The notes beneath the pieces are model-generated. The model had not been told where the DNA came from. It worked only from the letters and a program-made list of their open reading frames with translations, and did no database searches. Made by a program: the position numbers and the translations under genes. Shown here piece by piece: positions 22,610 to 30,733 of a stretch of DNA of 64,000 nucleotides (position 1 is its first letter; each line of letters starts with the position of its first letter). Source of the stretch: Synechococcus sp. NB0720_010 (GTDB lineage Bacteria; Cyanobacteriota; Cyanobacteriia; PCC-6307; Cyanobiaceae); contig NZ_CP090898.1 of assembly GCF_023078835.1 (NCBI RefSeq), positions 372,001 to 436,000 of the forward strand, read 5' to 3'.

Positions 22610-24214
22610 TCAGCTGTCCGATTGGATCGCGGTCGAGACGTCCTTGAGGGGAATCAAAGGATGGCCCCAAGGGCCTGTGCCAAGCAGTGGCGGCGCGCCG
22701 GCTGACGGGGAGAGCGCGGGGCCGGCTTGATAGGCCGCCTCAACCCAGGCCAGCAGCAGCGGACCCAGCACCCCTCCATTGGCCTGCTGACCGGGGCGCA
22801 GATTGAAATGATCGCCCCCTTTCGCCAAAACCAATTGGTGCCCGAAGGGCACGGCCTGGCGCATCGGTGTGATTGCCTCGGGGTCAGGTGGCACAACCCA
22901 GTCATGGGTGCCACTCACGACCAGAAGACGTGCACTGGCGTTGCGCAGTTGCGGAACCGAAAACAGCAGTGACATGGGCGGCGAGACGGCCACGGCTGCA
23001 ACGACCCGCGGATCGCGAAGGGCGGCCTGATCCACGCCATCGAGCCAGCTGCACTGCAGGGTCCAGCTCAGATTGCGCTGTGGATCACTGGTTTGCGGGC
23101 ATCGCTTCTTGAGCGTTGTCGCCTGGGGCACCAGACCCGCCTGCTGCAACGCCGTCGTCGCCCCCCAGGAGTGACCAATGACAACCACAGCGTTGGCGTT
23201 GACCCCAGTCACGCCGCTGAGTTGGTCAGCAGCCACCGCATCTGTGACCGCGCTGAGATCGCGAAAGCGCAGGGCCAGCTCAATGGGCTTCGGGGGAGGA
23301 ACCGCTCCCTTCAGCATCAGGGCCTGCTCCTTGTTATCACTGCCGGGGTGGCGGGGCAGGGCCACGGTGTAGCCCCTGGAGGCCAGCAAAGCGCCCCAGG
23401 ACGCGAAGTTCTTGGGACTATCCCAGAGGCCATGGGAGATCAACACCAATCGCCCATTGCCCCCTTGCGAGGGTTCAACGAGCACCACCTCCAAGGGCCG
23501 TGTGCGATGGGGCACCGCAAGACGCACCTGCCGTTGTCGTACCGCTGGAGATGACGACGGTGCAGGAGCCGTTGGCAGCAGATCAGGTGGGGTCTGGGCG
23601 AAGAAGCTGTTGGCCTGGGTGCGCTGGGCCAACATGCGGCCGAGGATCGTTTTGACCTGACCGAGGTTGAAGCGCACCCGCTGGCCAGGAAGGGCCTCGA
23701 TTAGTTCGACCAGGGTGGGCTCACCACCAGTGGCGTTCACCCTCGCCCGATCCAACGCCTGACGAAAGGTTTGCCCCGTCAGATCGGGATCTCGCCCCTC
23801 GATCGTGCCGAGGGATGAGACCACCAAAAATGCTTGCTCGAGCAGAGGTGAGCCAACGGATCCATCTGCTAAACGAATCATCGAGATCGGAATCGGTCGC
23901 TGGAGCACCTGCATCAGCAGCTGACTCACCGCTCCGTCCGAGGCCCGATCCAATTCCGCCAGGTCGCTCCGGCCCGCCATGAGGGCACTGGGACTTTTCA
24001 GTTCGCTGACCTTGACGCTGAAGCTGGAGCGCAACAGGGGAAGCTCAATCAGAACCTCCTCAATGGCGCGGGCCGGCGCTGTCCAGAGGGGGACTGCGGC
24101 GGCCGCAAGAAGCGCAAGGCTGAGCCGCTGCAACCAGTGGAAACTCGACACATGTCTAGTACTACTGCTTCGAGCATCGGCGTAATCGACTGGTGCTACT
24201 GGCTTCTGGCTCAT
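22610..24214 (-). CDS. Secreted alpha/beta hydrolase with N-terminal DUF1400-like region
   Basis: This protein (about 534 residues) has a signal peptide (LQRLSLALLAAAAVPLWTAPARA), then a DUF1400-like segment (IEEVLIELPLLRSSFSVKVSEL) typical of cyanobacterial secreted hydrolases, then an alpha/beta hydrolase domain. Seen are LVLISHGLWDSPKNF, the nucleophile elbow VVVIGHSWGATTA (Ser near residue 346) and a late GGDHFNLRP with the catalytic His. ATG 24214 is chosen; GTG 24148 would leave just the signal peptide and is also plausible. The substrate is unknown (esters or lipids likely). The mobile island begins about 25 bp upstream of this start. Confidence 0.82.
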   Translation of the reverse strand: MSQKPVAPVDYADARSSSTRHVSSFHWLQRLSLALLAAAAVPLWTAPARAIEEVLIELPLLRSSFSVKVSELKSPSALMAGRSDLAELDRASDGAVSQLLMQVLQRPIPISMIRLADGSVGSPLLEQAFLVVSSLGTIEGRDPDLTGQTFRQALDRARVNATGGEPTLVELIEALPGQRVRFNLGQVKTILGRMLAQRTQANSFFAQTPPDLLPTAPAPSSSPAVRQRQVRLAVPHRTRPLEVVLVEPSQGGNGRLVLISHGLWDSPKNFASWGALLASRGYTVALPRHPGSDNKEQALMLKGAVPPPKPIELALRFRDLSAVTDAVAADQLSGVTGVNANAVVVIGHSWGATTALQQAGLVPQATTLKKRCPQTSDPQRNLSWTLQCSWLDGVDQAALRDPRVVAAVAVSPPMSLLFSVPQLRNASARLLVVSGTHDWVVPPDPEAITPMRQAVPFGHQLVLAKGGDHFNLRPGQQANGGVLGPLLLAWVEAAYQAGPALSPSAGAPPLLGTGPWGHPLIPLKDVSTAIQSDS

Positions 24215-24239
24215 TCGCTTATGGGTGGTGCTAGGACTA

Positions 24240-24259
24240 GTCAAGCAGTGGTTCAAGCA
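24240..24259. repeat. Left copy (L) of a 20-bp bipartite repeat, candidate attL
   Basis: GTCAAGCAGTGGTTCAAGCA: two TCAAGCA heptamers 12 bp apart. It matches the repeats at 30007 (18/20) and 30190 (17/20) at the other end of the AT-rich island. It is 30 bp from the recombinase start codon. CAGTG/CACTG around it could also form a small hairpin. Confidence 0.6.
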
Positions 24260-24288
24260 CTGACGGGTTGTTCACTCGCAACCACACC

Positions 24289-25611
24289 ATGCCAGCAATC
24301 AGGAAATCGCTGACTGTCGACAAGGGAATCAGCGTGTTCTGCTACGAGCACACCAAGGACGGTTGGTATGTCCGTCAATGGAACAAAGCAGAGCGTCGGT
24401 ATCGCACTAAGCGCATTGAAGGCGCTTCTACCGAAACTGAGGCACTAGCAAACTTCTACAAAGCACTAGCGACTTTCTCAGATACGCCACAACGAGTAAT
24501 CAAGAGAGTTTCGGAAGCATCAACAATCACCGAACTCGTTAATGAGTTCAACAAGTTAGAGGTTCAGCGTGTGGATGCTGGATTAAAGGATGAGAAAGCA
24601 CGACTTCGCCGAATCACATCCTTAAGGCGAATGATTGAATACCTTAACGCCAAAGAGATTCAGTTTCCAAATCAGATAGATGTAACTACTTGGGAGGATT
24701 ACCCAATCTTCCGCAAGTCAGTAATGAAGAACACACGCAAGACAGAACTTCGTGATATTGCCGTCTTTTGCCGCTCCTACCTAGTGCCACGTGGATACTT
24801 AGCAAACGAGATTGCAATGTCTCGTGGATTCTTCCCGCGCATTTCCATCGGAGACGACGAGTTAGATGCCAATCCTGCTATCACAGCAGACGATTACAAG
24901 ATAATCAACAACTACCTTCGCCACCAATACTGCGGAAATGCTCGCACCTATGTTGGAGAGTACTCACGTCGGATGTTCGCCACATTCGTACATCTTCTGA
25001 AAAACAGCGGATGTCGTCCATCGGAATTGTTAGCAGTAAGGCGCAAGGACATTGAAATTACAAATCCCAAGCGATGGTCTGAATCCAAGCAAAAGTGGGA
25101 AGATGACTACAAACTAAAGATTCACGTTCGTGTGTCCAAAACTGGTAAGCGTCGTGATGTTCTTTGCCGAAGCAATGCTGCTTCAAACCTGCTTGATTTC
25201 TTGAAGTTTCAGCGTGGATGGCTCGATAGAAACCATTTCACATTCACCATTAAAGAAGATTCACTCATCTTCGGAAATCCCAAAGAGCACTTTGATAAAA
25301 CATTTGTCTATAAGCGTTTTGATGTGATGTGGGAAGAAGTCCGAAGCGCAGTTGCAAACGAAATCGCAGGCAACAGATTCAGCGAGCGTCAATATACCCT
25401 GTATTCGTTACGCTCAACCTTCATCGAAGATTGCATCACAGCGGGGTTAGATGTGTATCTCGTCGCTCGCTTGTGCGGCAATAGCGTCGAAGTGATTCAA
25501 AAGCACTACGATAGACACGACGTTCTCAAACGCGCTGAAGAGGTTCAGTCGTTACCAATTGGTAGGCAGAAACCGCCGGAAGTCGAAACGATAAATGTCC
25601 TTGATATTTAA
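24289..25611 (+). CDS. Tyrosine recombinase / phage-type integrase
   Basis: A 440-residue protein. The N-terminal arm (AIRKSLTVDKGISVFCYEHTKDGWYVRQWN) resembles an arm-site or AP2-like domain. A SAM-like helical core domain at about 85-170 precedes the catalytic domain. Catalytic residues seen are Arg in NSGCRPSELLAVRR (about residue 246), Arg in YSLRSTFIED (about 380) and a late H-Y-D-R-H cluster that should carry the nucleophile Tyr. ATG 24289 is preferred over TTG 24268. It should integrate and excise the island. Codon use is unlike the flanking genes, which suggests horizontal acquisition. Confidence 0.88.
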   Translation: MPAIRKSLTVDKGISVFCYEHTKDGWYVRQWNKAERRYRTKRIEGASTETEALANFYKALATFSDTPQRVIKRVSEASTITELVNEFNKLEVQRVDAGLKDEKARLRRITSLRRMIEYLNAKEIQFPNQIDVTTWEDYPIFRKSVMKNTRKTELRDIAVFCRSYLVPRGYLANEIAMSRGFFPRISIGDDELDANPAITADDYKIINNYLRHQYCGNARTYVGEYSRRMFATFVHLLKNSGCRPSELLAVRRKDIEITNPKRWSESKQKWEDDYKLKIHVRVSKTGKRRDVLCRSNAASNLLDFLKFQRGWLDRNHFTFTIKEDSLIFGNPKEHFDKTFVYKRFDVMWEEVRSAVANEIAGNRFSERQYTLYSLRSTFIEDCITAGLDVYLVARLCGNSVEVIQKHYDRHDVLKRAEEVQSLPIGRQKPPEVETINVLDI

Positions 25612-26226
25612 CTCTTTCCAAGGACGCACCTACTAAACAATTCCATAAATATGCTGAGCGACGCCTAGAAGCGTCTGTGCGGCGTTTTAATTGCTTTTAG
25701 GTGTATTGCTTCGTATGATGCATTTTTAGGCGCCTTGTAGGCGATTCTGAGCGAAGTAAACACATCACCACTTAAACCTATGCCAGACGGACTAACTAAA
25801 GACCAACGCCACTAGCGTAATTATCAGTTCCCACATGTATACAGAGAAAAGTCTTACCCTTTGGGCGGATCTATAGAGGGAGACACTCCTCCTAACACCT
25901 TCCGTTTACAGGAAAAAGTGCTTATGGGGCAGCGATTAAGGGGGATAGCGCATCTAGAGAGGGAGGAACTCATCGTGCCTGAGTAAGACCACATGTATAG
26001 AGGGAAATCTTTCTAACGATCCCACATGTATACAGGAGTAATTCTTATGGGGGATCGATTAAGGGAGAAGTAAGACATTACTACCTCCTGGCAAATGAAG
26101 CCTTCGCCAACCCGACATGTATAGAGGAGAATACATAGGGCGTATTTGTATGAAGAGAAATAATCCTATCCCTTCGCCTCTTCCTTTAAAAGCGTTCCAC
26201 ATAGAACACAAGATTATGTACCAGTT
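25612..26226. other. Non-coding AT-rich spacer with hairpins and iteron-like repeats
   Basis: This stretch of 615 bp has no convincing gene. Just after the recombinase gene are two hairpins, GACGC-CTAGAA-GCGTC (25660-25675) and CGCC-TTGTA-GGCG (25731-25743), separated by an AT-rich stretch. From 25830 to 26130 there is an array of degenerate repeats, listed separately. A frame opening at ATG 26117 lies in a repeat copy and conflicts with the better frame at 26227, so it is not called. Confidence 0.7.
25830..26131. repeat. Iteron-like array of about seven degenerate repeats
   Basis: Core similar to GTATAGAGGGARAA. Copies begin near 25837, 25871, 25904, 25953, 25995, 26028 and 26119, with spacings of 34, 33, 49, 42, 33 and 91 bp. 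Four copies are preceded by ACAT, giving the longer box CCACATGTATASAG. Two copies (25908-25941 and 26032-26065) extend into a second shared block, CTTATGGGG then CGATTAAGGG. Helically phased direct repeats upstream of a DNA-binding-protein gene suggest replication-initiator iterons or operators. Confidence 0.6.
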
Positions 26227-26679
26227 ATGGCAGTTATTCTTAGAGACATTGCGCCTCCAATTAGAGAGGTGTCAAAGCTTGGTTATGCAGCAGTCGCTGT
26301 ATACAGTCTGTTGTTTGAATCAGCACACCGTGAGTGGGAATACTCTCACTCCTCAGAAGGATTTCCTCGCGATACCGGTGGAACAACCACTTGGTCTCAT
26401 AAAGCAATTGCTGAAACCCTAAAGATGGGTAAGGCAAAAGTTATTCAGTCAACCGATGTTTTATTGGATTCAGGCTTCTTGCAAGTCATAGGACGAGTTT
26501 CGTCTTCAAAGGGTAGTAAGCATCGAATCTATCGCGTCATTCATCCTAAAGAGATAGAGATTCAGAGGCTCATCATTTCTTATTTTGATGAGCCACCTTC
26601 TATTCGCAATAAAAAGATCGACTCCATGAAGCATTCGTCTTCTGAAGTCATCGAGAACGATTCTGAAATCTTCTACTAA
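26227..26679 (+). CDS. Winged-helix-type DNA-binding protein of the island
   Basis: This protein has 150 residues. The middle (TTTWSHKAIAETLKMGKAKVIQSTDVLLDSGFLQ) has the helix-turn-helix spacing and LLDSGF turn of winged-helix proteins, followed by a basic wing (GRVSSSKGSKHRIYRVIH). It resembles MarR/RepA-type initiator or regulator domains, but I cannot name the family. It lies directly after the iteron-like array, which makes it a candidate to bind those repeats as a replication initiator or repressor (inference). The C-terminus is acidic and Ser-rich. Codons are AT-rich like the rest of the island. Confidence 0.7.
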   Translation: MAVILRDIAPPIREVSKLGYAAVAVYSLLFESAHREWEYSHSSEGFPRDTGGTTTWSHKAIAETLKMGKAKVIQSTDVLLDSGFLQVIGRVSSSKGSKHRIYRVIHPKEIEIQRLIISYFDEPPSIRNKKIDSMKHSSSEVIENDSEIFY

Positions 26680-26714
26680 GACAACTTTAACCGACAAACA
26701 TTCTATTTCTCTTT

Positions 26715-27605
26715 ATGCCACGCAACAAGTATCAACGACGCAGAGGAATGCGTCCATCTACAACTGCTCCATCTGCCGCTCAAACTGAACTTCTCCAGCA
26801 TCCTGTTCAACTACCACATTCATCAACTTCTTCCGCTGATGTCGGAAGGGAAGCAGCACGTCAAGTTCGAGAAACCAACAATCCCAATACTCGGTTCATC
26901 GACAAACCAGATGCATCTACAAATAAGAACGTCCTTAGAGATGCCTACAACCGCCAACAAGCGGCTTCTAGGAGTGTTCAGCGTCAAGTACTAGGAGAAG
27001 CATCAACTGCCTCTCTGAAGCCATCTGGAAGGTATGTAGCGCCATCCGTTCCACCACGCTTATCTATGCAACTTGTCGCTAAAGGTGGAGCAATGCGACT
27101 GATGCCAGTTCCAGCAATTGGTGCAAACATCGCTGCTGGTGTCGCCGCATATGCAATTGAACGTGCTGCACAACCAGCACTTGAGTATCTAGGTGAAAAA
27201 CTCGCTAGAGGCTTATACAGCGGTTATGAAGCCATTTTTGGTGATACCGACGGTATGACGTTCGATGAGTTGCAAGAGCACCATCGGAAGATTGAACAAG
27301 AGTATCTAACGAGGATTCAAGGACAGACAAACGAGGGATTGAATCCTCCAGAAGCCACTCAAGCACTCAATAAACCCGTTCTTGAAGCGCCAGTAACCAC
27401 ACCAAAACCGCCAGTAAACCAACCGAAAGTGGCATTGCCAGCGGAAATGGAGAAACAGACTCAACCTCAGTTTGATGAGCGAAATCGTGAGTATCAGATT
27501 CGACGAGCGGCATTAGGTGACAATCCGACTAAAGAAGAGATGGATGCAGTTGTTGCTTACGGTTTGGAGCAGCACAGAATCAATTTCCCTCATCTCTACG
27601 ACTAA
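26715..27605 (+). CDS. Island protein of unknown function with hydrophobic centre
   Basis: A 296-residue protein that I do not recognise. The first 110 residues are Gln/Arg/Ser/Thr-rich and look disordered (PRNKYQRRRGMRPS). A central Gly/Ala stretch, PAIGANIAAGVAAYAIERAA (about 137-155), could contact a membrane or form an amphipathic helix. Next comes a likely helical part (TFDELQEHHRKIEQEYLTRI), a Pro-rich linker, and a charged C-terminus. It follows the winged-helix gene by 35 bp on the same strand, so they are probably co-transcribed. A structural, mobilisation or packaging-related role is possible but not supported by a motif. Confidence 0.7.
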   Translation: MPRNKYQRRRGMRPSTTAPSAAQTELLQHPVQLPHSSTSSADVGREAARQVRETNNPNTRFIDKPDASTNKNVLRDAYNRQQAASRSVQRQVLGEASTASLKPSGRYVAPSVPPRLSMQLVAKGGAMRLMPVPAIGANIAAGVAAYAIERAAQPALEYLGEKLARGLYSGYEAIFGDTDGMTFDELQEHHRKIEQEYLTRIQGQTNEGLNPPEATQALNKPVLEAPVTTPKPPVNQPKVALPAEMEKQTQPQFDERNREYQIRRAALGDNPTKEEMDAVVAYGLEQHRINFPHLYD

Positions 27606-27701
27606 CGCTATCCAGAGAGTCTGTCAAAGATCTAAGAGTGCGTATTAATACTCTCATCCCCACATCATTGTCCCCATAGGGGTAGTTGCTGATACACCTT
27701 T

Positions 27702-27727
27702 CACTAGTTCGTTAGAACAGTGCTTTT
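27702..27727 (+). terminator. Possible terminator in the island
   Basis: A GTTC-GTTA-GAAC hairpin with partial outer CAC/GTG pairing, then CTTTTC, about 100 bp after the 296-residue gene. A CCCC-ATA-GGGG hairpin (27672-27682) and a GTATTAATAC palindrome (about 27643-27652) lie in the same spacer. All are weak candidates. Confidence 0.3.
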
Positions 27728-27834
27728 CTAGTTGATTGCACTATTGATCTCTTTCTCGAGGTTTTCGGTAATCAACCATTAAAGCATTATAACAAGTATC
27801 GAAGTCATCCGCAACTTGGTTCTCGTTGTCCTAG

Positions 27835-29136
27835 TCACATCTTGATGTTTAGTGTCGGAAGTTCCTGGATATACTTGCTGCCTTTATCGCACGTCTTCTT
27901 GAGTAGATCAGCGAACAAGTCTGTTTCTGCTTGACCTTTTCTCCATCCTATCCAGAGCTTGCCATTCTTGTATGCAGCATTAGTATCATCTTTGCAGTCA
28001 TAAATGTCTTCGAAGTATGTGCTGCTAACTCCGCCTGGTGTCGAGCTTGTACCAGGAATATAAGTGGGCGAATTACCACTGGTTGTACAACTTATGCTCC
28101 CACCGTATCCGCTGCAGTTTGTTGATGACGTTGAGTTGCCAATAAATGTTCCGGAAGAGCCGCCCTTGGGTGACTTGTAGTACCTAGTAATCCTCTTAAA
28201 CCCAACATATCTTGTCTGTTGACCATGGTGAGGTATTCGATATGTCCTTGAGAAGTAGAACAGCCTTCCATCGTCTGCTTGGTAAGACATCCAGCCAACT
28301 GGCTTTGGTAGTCCGTAAACATCAACACCTTTAGTCTTGATGATGCAGAGTTTGCCATCGCAATCGTCACGCTCTGCCTCTACTGTCTTCATGGAGCTGT
28401 TAAACCTCATGCATCCTTCATAGTCTTTAGCTTGAAGGCATTGAGTATGAGAATCTTTCTTTGAGCTCTTTCTGACTGGTATCTTTGCCGTACTGGGTAA
28501 CACTATTCTATTTCTGTTGTGTGACAGACCCGCTAGTAATTTCATACATTTAGCCGAGCCAGCGCCCATCCTCTTTATACCGTCCGGGATATTCCATGAA
28601 AGTGGACTTCCTTTAATCCTCTGCTCCCTAAGCTGTAGATTCTTTATGTCGTGTCTATTTTCACCACTATCAGATTGCAGCCTATCTATCTTATCCTTTG
28701 TCAACATGGGATCGCTCTCTAGGCAGCTTCTAAATGCAATACTGACAAGTGCTTCTGTTTTCCATCCGTGTCTGCCACCTTTGGTGTAGTCGATACGGAA
28801 GATTCCTGGTGCGAGCCTATTAGCAGCTCTGTGGCAGATTTCTGTCATTCCTTTGATTGCATCGTTGTATTTTTCTTTCCAGCCAATTTGTCCTGATAAC
28901 TCCTCCTGCATCTCCCATGTCACCTTGCTACCAAGTGATTTCCAGTGTCTATTAGCTTCTGGTTGAGCCTCTTTCACTCCGAATCCATAATCAAACATGC
29001 AGCCATCAAAAGCCAGGACTTTCGCTGTATCTTTTTCCCAACCTAGGAAAAACTTGCTATTCCCATATGCTGGAAGCATTGGGAGTGAAGCACACATTAC
29101 TATTGCTGATGCTGCTGGGATGAATCTCATCTTCAT
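27835..29136 (-). CDS. Exported Cys-containing protein of unknown function
   Basis: A protein of 433 residues with a signal peptide (MKMRFIPAASAIVMCASLPMLPAYG). The mature part is basic with many Cys. A central CLQAKDYEGCMRF motif is of a kind that recurs in secreted cyanobacterial proteins. A Ser/Thr/Gly-rich, Cys-containing segment near 345-390 (SGTFIGNSTSSTNCSG) reads like a linker. The C-terminal domain ends with TCDKGSKYIQELPTL. The start overlaps the stop of the preceding 84-residue gene (ATGA), so three exported proteins form one operon. Function unknown. AT-rich codons match the island. Confidence 0.75.
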   Translation of the reverse strand: MKMRFIPAASAIVMCASLPMLPAYGNSKFFLGWEKDTAKVLAFDGCMFDYGFGVKEAQPEANRHWKSLGSKVTWEMQEELSGQIGWKEKYNDAIKGMTEICHRAANRLAPGIFRIDYTKGGRHGWKTEALVSIAFRSCLESDPMLTKDKIDRLQSDSGENRHDIKNLQLREQRIKGSPLSWNIPDGIKRMGAGSAKCMKLLAGLSHNRNRIVLPSTAKIPVRKSSKKDSHTQCLQAKDYEGCMRFNSSMKTVEAERDDCDGKLCIIKTKGVDVYGLPKPVGWMSYQADDGRLFYFSRTYRIPHHGQQTRYVGFKRITRYYKSPKGGSSGTFIGNSTSSTNCSGYGGSISCTTSGNSPTYIPGTSSTPGGVSSTYFEDIYDCKDDTNAAYKNGKLWIGWRKGQAETDLFADLLKKTCDKGSKYIQELPTLNIKM

Positions 29137-29387
29137 TTGCCTTCAACACAGTGATAACCACGGTCACTAGTTGCTTTAATCGTTTCTGCCTTTAGCCATT
29201 TCTCACCTTCTGCTTGGCACGTTGTGATGTCAACCATCTCAATCTTTTCAAGTGCCGCTCCGACTGAGCCATTTTGATCAAATGACTTGCCATAAAGAAT
29301 TACAAGCCATGCTGACTGAGCATTAGCAGAACCAGCAGTCATTACCAGTGCTGACATAAATAGCGCAAGCGGCAGAAACTTAGTCAT
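29133..29387 (-). CDS. Small exported protein of unknown function
   Basis: An 84-residue protein with a clear signal peptide (MTKFLPLALFMSALVMTAGSANA). The mature part of about 60 residues has two Cys (TTCQAEGEKW and YHCVEGK), which probably form a disulfide. It is the middle gene of a three-gene minus-strand operon of exported proteins, overlapping the next gene by 4 bp and lying 6 bp after the preceding stop. Function not known; a partner of the larger proteins is the simplest guess. Confidence 0.75.
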   Translation of the reverse strand: MTKFLPLALFMSALVMTAGSANAQSAWLVILYGKSFDQNGSVGAALEKIEMVDITTCQAEGEKWLKAETIKATSDRGYHCVEGK

Positions 29388-29393
29388 GACTCC

Positions 29394-29828
29394 TCAATCC
29401 TTGATATTGACTTCAACCTGAGTTGCGTCTCTGTTCTTACACTTGCGGCAAGCACGTCTTAAGTCTGTCCAAAAGCGGTTGGCTGCACCTTGATTAGCAA
29501 AGAGAAACTGTGCAAACTCGGGCTCAGTCATCCCGTCTTCAACGTATTCGACACCAAAAGTCGTAACCCATGATGTTGTCCACATATTTGTGTACTCACC
29601 ATTTTTGGTAATGTACGTAATATCCTCGAAGCGAAGAGAGTCTTTGTCGTTGACGATTATCCGCCCATCAACAAACTTGACATTGCAGTCGTTGCCTTTC
29701 TTTCCGCACCAAGCGTCGTAACCCTTTGCGTTGCTGTCAGTAGCCGCCTCACCTAGTCCTGAGTGAGCAGGTGATATTGCTCCGAAAAGAGATAGAGACG
29801 CGATAGCAAGAGTCAGAATCTTTTTCAT
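29394..29828 (-). CDS. Exported protein of unknown function, first gene of the island's secreted operon
   Basis: A 144-residue protein. ATG 29828 has a GAGG ribosome site and gives a signal peptide (MKKILTLAIASLSLFGAISPAHS). The mature part contains AWCGKKGNDCNVKF, a strand-rich middle (RIIVNDKDSLRFEDITYI) and a C-terminal RRACRKCKNRD, so four Cys in two pairs. The strand-rich middle resembles small secreted beta proteins, but no family is recognised. The operon reads away from the right edge of the island. Confidence 0.75.
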   Translation of the reverse strand: MKKILTLAIASLSLFGAISPAHSGLGEAATDSNAKGYDAWCGKKGNDCNVKFVDGRIIVNDKDSLRFEDITYITKNGEYTNMWTTSWVTTFGVEYVEDGMTEPEFAQFLFANQGAANRFWTDLRRACRKCKNRDATQVEVNIKD

Positions 29829-30006
29829 CAGTTTTTCCTCGATAAAAGTGACAAAAATCTGAGAGCTCTTATTACTATACACTACTGCATCTATTTACCC
29901 CCCATGGGAGGGTATAGATCTTTACGAACGTCTGGCTACTGTTTATTAATGGTTGGATTTAGTCAGTTTTGTGTACGTTTTTCGATGTCACTTAACCCAC
30001 ATCCAT

Positions 30007-30026
30007 GTCAAGCAGCAGTTCAAGCA
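30007..30026. repeat. Middle copy (M) of the bipartite repeat
   Basis: GTCAAGCAGCAGTTCAAGCA, 19/20 identical to the copy at 30190 and 18/20 to the left copy at 24240. The TCAAGCA heptamers are again 12 bp apart. It may be an internal recombinase site or an older attachment site. Confidence 0.55.
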
Positions 30027-30189
30027 GAAAACCCAGTCGTAGCGGCACTCTTCCAAGTTCTACTAAGACATGGAACCGTTGCGCTGTTCGGGGTTTGAGT
30101 TGTAATCAATGAGGATTCAGATCTGTATTGCGAGTCATCCTTGGTTCATAGACAAAGCGACTGAATGAACCGTCAAGCATCGGTACCGA

Positions 30190-30209
30190 GTCAAGCACCA
30201 GTTCAAGCA
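30190..30209. repeat. Right copy (R) of the bipartite repeat, candidate attR
   Basis: GTCAAGCACCAGTTCAAGCA, 17/20 identical to the left copy. A third TCAAGCA heptamer sits 18 bp upstream (30173) across a CGGTACCG palindrome. The position coincides with the change from AT-rich to GC-rich sequence, so this copy is the better candidate for the island boundary. Confidence 0.6.
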
Positions 30210-30295
30210 GGAGTGACCCATAGAACCCAGTCAGTCACTAGAATGGACAAAGCCCGACACAGGCATGGCCCCGTTGCTCTGACCATCATCCGTGC

Positions 30296-30733
30296 ATGAC
30301 CCAAGTGCAGGTAGCTCTGGCCGTTCTCGAGCACAACGGCAGCTGGTTACTGCAGCTGCGGGATGACATTGCAGGCATCGTCGCTCCCGGCTGCTGGGGT
30401 CTCTTTGGCGGGCACCTTGAGCCCGGAGAAGGCCCCGAGGAAGCGCTGCGCCGGGAACTCTGGGAGGAAATTCGACTGGAGATCGGCACGCCGGTTCTTT
30501 GGTATGTCTCAAGCCAACCGGGAAAGATCAGACATGTTTTTCGTGCCCGCCTCGAGACGCCACTCCGGGCCCTGGAGCTGATGGAGGGTCAGGATCTCGC
30601 ACTCTTCTGCCCTAACGCCTTGCTATCCGGCGGGGCCTTCAGCCCAAAACTGAAGCAAACGCGGCCCCTAGCTGAGTCGACCCGCGAAGCACTGAGCCGC
30701 TATCAAACCGAGGAGAGCTCTTCGATGCGGTAG
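30296..30733 (+). CDS. Nudix hydrolase
   Basis: A 145-residue protein with a complete Nudix box, GGHLEPGEGPEEALRREL followed by WEEIRLEIG (about residues 38-64), matching GX5EX7REUXEEXGU. Such enzymes cleave nucleoside diphosphates linked to another moiety, and the substrate cannot be told from the box. The N-terminus (VQVALAVLEHNGSWLLQLRDD) is the usual first strands of the fold. It is the first chromosomal gene right of the island. Its 3' end overlaps the convergent 30703 gene by 31 bp. Confidence 0.88.
   Translation: MTQVQVALAVLEHNGSWLLQLRDDIAGIVAPGCWGLFGGHLEPGEGPEEALRRELWEEIRLEIGTPVLWYVSSQPGKIRHVFRARLETPLRALELMEGQDLALFCPNALLSGGAFSPKLKQTRPLAESTREALSRYQTEESSSMR

Follow-up and report, generated by a model that had tools for sequence, protein, structure and literature searches.

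Gene exchange among the dominant photosynthetic bacteria of the ocean is believed to be shaped by small hitch-hiking mobile elements, and those described in these bacteria are mostly tied to tRNA genes. The tycheposons, a published transposon family of picocyanobacteria (Hackl et al., 2023), reportedly span 4-200 kb. As summarized in PMC10872708, these elements encode a tyrosine recombinase and are bordered by tRNA genes, and some of them have been proposed to be satellites. Here we analyze a locus of Synechococcus sp. NB0720_010 that resembles tycheposons in some respects and departs from them in others. The window, by which we mean the whole 64-kb stretch analyzed (positions 372,001 to 436,000 of NZ_CP090898.1, numbered from its first nucleotide), comes from a complete 2.41-Mb genome; repeat and heptamer counts given below cover this window. 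A preliminary description made from the sequence alone had proposed a small undescribed integrative element, perhaps a tycheposon or satellite, carrying genes for secreted proteins. Our best explanation, to which we assign a probability of roughly 0.55, is a 6.1-kb site-specific integrative element of an undescribed family, with a phage-related winged-helix control module and satellite-like spread via a T7-like podovirus.

Insertion at a hydrolase start codon

The locus was picked out as an AT-rich island between GC-rich genes, and its base composition bears this out: G+C content is 43-46% at 25-30 kb versus 58-69% elsewhere in it (about 62% being typical of the surroundings). The low-GC stretch contains a tyrosine recombinase gene, a repeat array, a winged-helix gene, a gene encoding a protein of 296 amino acids (aa) and three minus-strand genes encoding exported proteins. 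In four congeners (our handles G007, G017, G021 and G010) the flanking hydrolase and NUDIX genes are neighbours, separated by no more than a short spacer, where the window has 6.1 kb between them. Comparison of the window reading frame with those of the four congeners showed that hydrolase protein homology begins exactly at GTG TCG AGT TTC, the counterpart starts being GTG CCG AGT CTC in G007, GTG TTG AGC TTC in G017 and ATG in G021 and G010. This point coincides with a CGACACA heptamer (complement TGTGTCG, which holds the GTG start codon), and homology to the congeners' upstream region resumes at a second CGACACA, the only 7-mer common to both end regions.

22613-24151, minus strand: alpha/beta hydrolase gene, the chromosomal insertion target (Pfam Abhydrolase; frame comparison)
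24146-24152, no strand assigned: left junction core CGACACA, where congener hydrolase homology starts
30255-30261, no strand assigned: right junction core CGACACA, where congener homology picks up again; the NUDIX gene starts at 30296

As the homology breakpoints coincide with the duplicated core, the element is placed at the hydrolase start codon. The four empty sites confirm, at the level of sequence comparison, that the island is a real insertion there. The element spans about 24153-30261, or 6.1 kb counting one core copy. The empty-site comparison suggested in the preliminary description succeeded, but its extent of 24240-30209 had to be redrawn to start near 24146 and end near 30261, the breakpoints lying at CGACACA rather than at 24239 and 30210. 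The window contains no tRNA genes, in agreement with the earlier remark that no tRNA target was in view. No known RNA families were found in the element region, and no element protein gave a PADLOC match to a defence-system gene.

The hydrolase frame now runs upstream into element sequence, where a new in-frame ATG is found at 24214 (window 24152-24214); the insertion thereby adds about 21 codons before the hydrolase signal peptide.

Repeats within the element ends

A 20-bp repeat, GTCAAGCANNNGTTCAAGCA, occurs in three exact copies in the window (0.11 copies expected by chance; three copies reached in 0 of 100 shuffles). Each copy holds a pair of TCAAGCA heptamers with a spacing of 12 bp, and 7 of the 18 TCAAGCA copies in the window sit inside the two element ends, all in one orientation.

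24240-24259, plus strand: left inner 20-bp repeat, two TCAAGCA heptamers, putative arm-type integrase sites (repeat and heptamer search)
30007-30026, plus strand: right-end inner 20-bp repeat, copy 1, two TCAAGCA heptamers (same search)
30173-30209, plus strand: right-end inner cluster, a single TCAAGCA at 30173 plus the 20-bp repeat at 30190-30209 (same search)

By analogy with lambda-type integrases, the heptamers would be arm-type integrase sites. The repeat had been noticed earlier as a 20-bp sequence recurring at the two edges; it is real and exceeds chance expectation, but it is present three times, in each case within the element rather than at its edges. The 20-bp repeats were also considered as attachment sites and rejected, since congener homology resumes at the core repeats, which are 87 bp further out on the left and 45 bp further out on the right.

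In the nearest relative, an element in G073, each end bears paired GACAAGCA heptamers, and a GST-like gene has about 57 bp of its 5' end duplicated as the attachment sites. The G073 integrase is 64% identical to that of the window and the winged-helix protein 58%. The targets being a hydrolase gene and a GST-like gene, these two related elements each occupy the 5' end of another protein gene. The call of an integrative element is thus upheld by empty sites in congeners, a duplicated 7-bp core, putative arm-type repeats and a related element of like architecture.

The G073 element also carries two copies of a peptide gene (L063:4914-5189 and L063:5997-6266) having the look of a Nif11-type leader (MSEEQLKAFIAKV...) with a GVAGGG leader end; these are candidate prochlorosin-like precursors.

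The integrase and a modular element family

24289-25611, plus strand: tyrosine recombinase (integrase), 440 aa from a conserved MP start (PHROG integrase family; family alignment)

The recombinase assignment was sound. The protein matches a PHROG integrase family (E 2.7e-15) and its catalytic R, K, R and Y residues align and are conserved. HxxR reads YxxR, the histidine being replaced by tyrosine in most members of the integrase family, and the second histidine is asparagine in the window protein. Relatives of the integrase were found in 73 of 399 genomes sampled from the order, mostly at about 30% identity, and most of the relative elements have no tRNA nearby. The integrase gave no match in the plasmid collection.

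The layout of integrase, array and winged helix is shared by the window element and those of G073, G048 and G382, all with one integrase family, and the winged-helix gene adjoins a different tyrosine integrase in G058 and G115. A second layout (islands L123 and L125) has an integrase, three unknown genes and then a 296-aa gene convergent with an exported gene of the 433-aa type; this convergent pair is also present in L124 and L128, with remnants in L126 and L129. In related picocyanobacterial islands a T7-like RNA polymerase gene stands beside the integrase or the winged-helix gene (L118:10838-13489, Pfam RNA_pol, E 1.5e-37; L068:7077-9506; and L075:7058-9355, which is broken). Our comparisons support an undescribed modular family of tyrosine-recombinase elements of roughly 5-8 kb within the same cyanobacterial family, undescribed being said with respect to the databases and literature compared. 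The earlier suggestion that the element may be undescribed holds within that scope.

Two further observations concern these islands. L064 (10866-11210) has an integrase, a repeat array and the palindrome-like TTGTTCCATAAGAGAACAAG, and a winged-helix gene was not detected in it. Islands L068, L069, L074, L075, L084 and L117 (families f7, f8 and f4) share a chromosomal neighbourhood, an insertion hotspot repeatedly used by integrases of the window kind.

The repeat array and the winged-helix protein

25829-26140, plus strand: direct-repeat array, motif TGTATACAGRGA or TATAGAGGGAGA, pointing toward the winged-helix gene (repeat search; matrix scan)
26192-26212, plus strand: imperfect palindrome GCGTTCCACATAGAACACAAG, operator-like, preceding the winged-helix gene (conserved from element to element)
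26227-26679, plus strand: winged-helix DNA-binding protein, 150 aa (profile matches, AlphaFold model, Foldseek, phage homologs)

A scoring matrix for the array was trained on 32 sites from six other elements with the window sites excluded. It ranked five plus-strand sites at 25837-26119 at the top of the 64-kb window, with scores of 12.8-17.9 against 6.7 for the next best. At least five clear sites found by means of other genomes only bear out the iteron-like array of the preliminary description. In relatives the array has a period of 26-29 bp and is likewise oriented toward the winged-helix gene, and single array-type sites precede other element genes (L065, L125 and L066).

The winged-helix call also survived scrutiny. 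The AlphaFold model has a pLDDT of 79 and its Foldseek matches are winged-helix regulators and phage replication initiators. Profile searches matched the N-terminal domain of O-like replication initiators, with E 1.2e-7 for a phage homolog and a weak E 0.013 for the window protein. Proteins of this type have 130-150 aa and are predicted to be essentially a single winged-helix domain. The only phage relatives found belong to T7-like podoviruses, the majority of which have an integrase gene close by, and in seven distinct phage contigs the gene is upstream of that for the terminase large subunit (TerL), an eighth contig ending before that point. The winged-helix protein was considered as a possible small terminase (TerS): the position before TerL fits, but profile hidden Markov models match O-like initiators and regulators rather than TerS, and the model suggests one domain. 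In Oinezvirus-type phages the gene immediately before TerL (L115:20001-20426) is annotated as hypothetical and is a candidate TerS or late-gene regulator.

An imperfect palindrome, differing in sequence, also precedes the winged-helix gene in several phages. The palindrome is weak against shuffles in most single elements and stronger in some phages; the argument that it is operator-like therefore relies on its conserved position and sequence across elements, not on shuffle statistics. The array could be an origin, an operator or a set of promoters.

If the array were an origin, the locus could be a plasmid-like integrative element, in which the winged helix is an initiator acting on iterons and the excised element replicates itself with no phage helper and is transferred by natural transformation or vesicles. 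A direct-repeat array adjoining an initiator-like DNA-binding gene is the arrangement of an iteron replicon; the array precedes the winged-helix gene, its period in relatives is iteron-like, replication initiators are among the Foldseek matches and the profile match, weak for the window protein itself, is to O-like initiators. However, a protein of 130-150 aa with one predicted winged-helix domain appears to be without a helicase-recruiting part, single array-type sites stand before other genes, L064 keeps the array with no winged-helix gene detected, and the integrase is in no plasmid record. We consider this explanation unlikely, while granting it a real share of the probability.

The array might instead supply promoters read by a single-subunit RNA polymerase of phage type, such that an infecting T7-like phage would switch on the element genes and possibly RNA-primed replication. 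The array consensus includes GTATACAGGGAGAA, which resembles TATAGGGAGA, the start region of T7 promoters. The sites face the next gene, including the single copies before other genes, and related islands encode a T7-like RNA polymerase. Yet the islands having their own polymerase are without a clear array, tandem spacing of 26-29 bp is unusual for promoters, and a pattern scan of IMG/VR for the array core gave only 31 scattered single matches, none with any element gene. The motif is also missing from the winged-helix phages examined, and this explanation strikes us as quite improbable.

The 296-aa protein and the exported proteins

26715-27605, plus strand: 296-aa protein, recurrent in related islands, with a conserved basic N-terminus and a conserved C-terminal domain of about 45 aa
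27835-29136, minus strand: exported protein, 433 aa, with the motif HxxCLQAKDYEGCM; in related islands its gene is convergent with the 296-aa gene (homology; motif)
29133-29387, minus strand: small exported protein, 84 aa (sequence; signal peptide by eye)
29394-29828, minus strand: exported protein, 144 aa, whose G058-island homologs are frame-broken or duplicated (homology)

The 296-aa protein, labelled unknown in the preliminary description, indeed matched no family in the profile libraries. A scan of genome contigs with its alignment found two loci only, in Synechococcus sp. AG-670-B23 and UW140. The three-gene exported operon reported downstream consists of three minus-strand open reading frames, of 433, 84 and 144 aa, each with a classical Sec signal peptide as judged by eye. 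The 433-aa protein has no solved-structure relative, and a single-sequence structure prediction for the 144-aa protein had a pLDDT of 45, too low for use.

In proteins of the 433-aa type the signal peptide is followed by a common HxxC(I/L)xAxDYxGC motif, beyond which the sequences diverge. As such relatives occur in 70 of 200 genomes, the motif is not confined to these elements. The preliminary description had the exported proteins as cargo acting outside the cell. All three do carry signal peptides, but proteins of the 433-aa type accompany the element family repeatedly and hence may be a core part rather than random cargo. A widespread exported family (L190-L201 and other genomes of the order; 70 of 200 genomes) shares a KIHKLCIEAKDYxGCV segment followed by differing domains.

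Discussion

We envisage that the tyrosine recombinase would recombine the 7-bp core at the hydrolase start codon, as the junctions suggest, guided by the TCAAGCA heptamers just inside the ends, as the anatomy suggests. The winged helix may then act on the array and on the palindrome before its own gene, and thereby control replication and/or expression after excision. Dispersal would be by hitch-hiking in T7-like podovirus particles in the manner of a satellite, and the 296-aa and exported 433-aa proteins would be recurrent parts of the family. The element has an integrase, small size and no structural genes of its own, which is the profile of a satellite, and as the preliminary description stated, no phage structural genes were recognized among the element genes. 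Phage-satellite status is plausible given that the winged helix is akin to a phage gene next to terminase, but a helper, a packaging signal and occurrence in virions were not found. A more specific version would have T7-like cyanopodoviruses as the helpers of a family of minimal satellites. These would insert at the 5' ends of protein genes, would have a conserved secreted protein in their core, and would detect the helper by way of arrayed phage-polymerase promoters or of phage-related sites for the winged helix; we hold this to be distinctly unlikely.

Several results weigh against a mobile, satellite-like element. The congener flanks are diverged (hydrolase proteins 59-81% identical), and it is therefore the core repeat alone that makes the junction exact. 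A near-identical copy of the element was not found elsewhere, so that there is no direct sign of recent movement. The integrase, 296-aa and 433-aa proteins have no match in phage records, and relatives of the integrase and 296-aa protein were not found in IMG/VR by scans that were pattern-seeded only. The array motif is absent from the examined phages that carry the winged-helix gene. TerS, primase, AlpA and capsid-remodelling genes were not recognized among the element genes.

Another explanation is a decayed prophage or an inert genomic island that is no longer mobile, in favour of which are the lack of structural genes and the broken copies among related islands (L116, with a stop, L126, L129 and L131). 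In the window, however, the integrase and the winged helix are intact, as are both ends, and the compact layout recurs in related elements; we consider decay very improbable. That the element is a tycheposon, as first suggested, we regard as highly improbable: its host, its tyrosine recombinase and a size within the 4-200 kb range agree, as does the satellite character of some tycheposons in the published summary and general knowledge, but integration is at a protein start codon with no tRNA in 64 kb nor near most relatives, and the tRNA-border test failed.

Returning to the satellite-like integrative element, we compared it with the described systems it most resembles. Tycheposons, insofar as the available summary describes them, share the picocyanobacterial host and the tyrosine recombinase, overlap in size at their small end and include proposed satellites; that description sets them apart by their tRNA site, where the window element uses a protein start codon. 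The picocyanobacterial integrase elements of PMC10187409 likewise have an unusual tyrosine integrase and variable cargo in Prochlorococcus and Synechococcus islands, but these are found upstream of a tRNA-Phe or tRNA-Cys gene and frequently have a small serine recombinase as well; the window element has neither. The PICMI satellites of Vibrio (PMC10803314) are also marine, about 6.1 kb in size, and consist of an integrase and few genes with no structural or capsid-remodelling genes. They carry int, alpA and prim and sit next to fis, whereas the window element has only the integrase of these, with no AlpA or primase match, lies at a hydrolase start codon and has at most a putative helper. The defining trait of VEIMEs is recovery from virus particles, and the integrase and 296-aa protein had no IMG/VR match in the pattern-seeded scans. 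Oinezvirus-type T7-like phages (AP013546) share the winged-helix gene (34-39% identity) and a tyrosine integrase, but they are full phages with terminase, portal, capsid and polymerase genes and no array motif. Set beside these systems, the present family has its sites at the 5' ends of protein genes and a recognizable core of integrase, array plus winged helix, 296-aa protein and exported 433-type protein. If the link between the winged helix and the terminase locus reflects helper dependence, this would implicate T7-like podoviruses as helpers in cyanobacteria.

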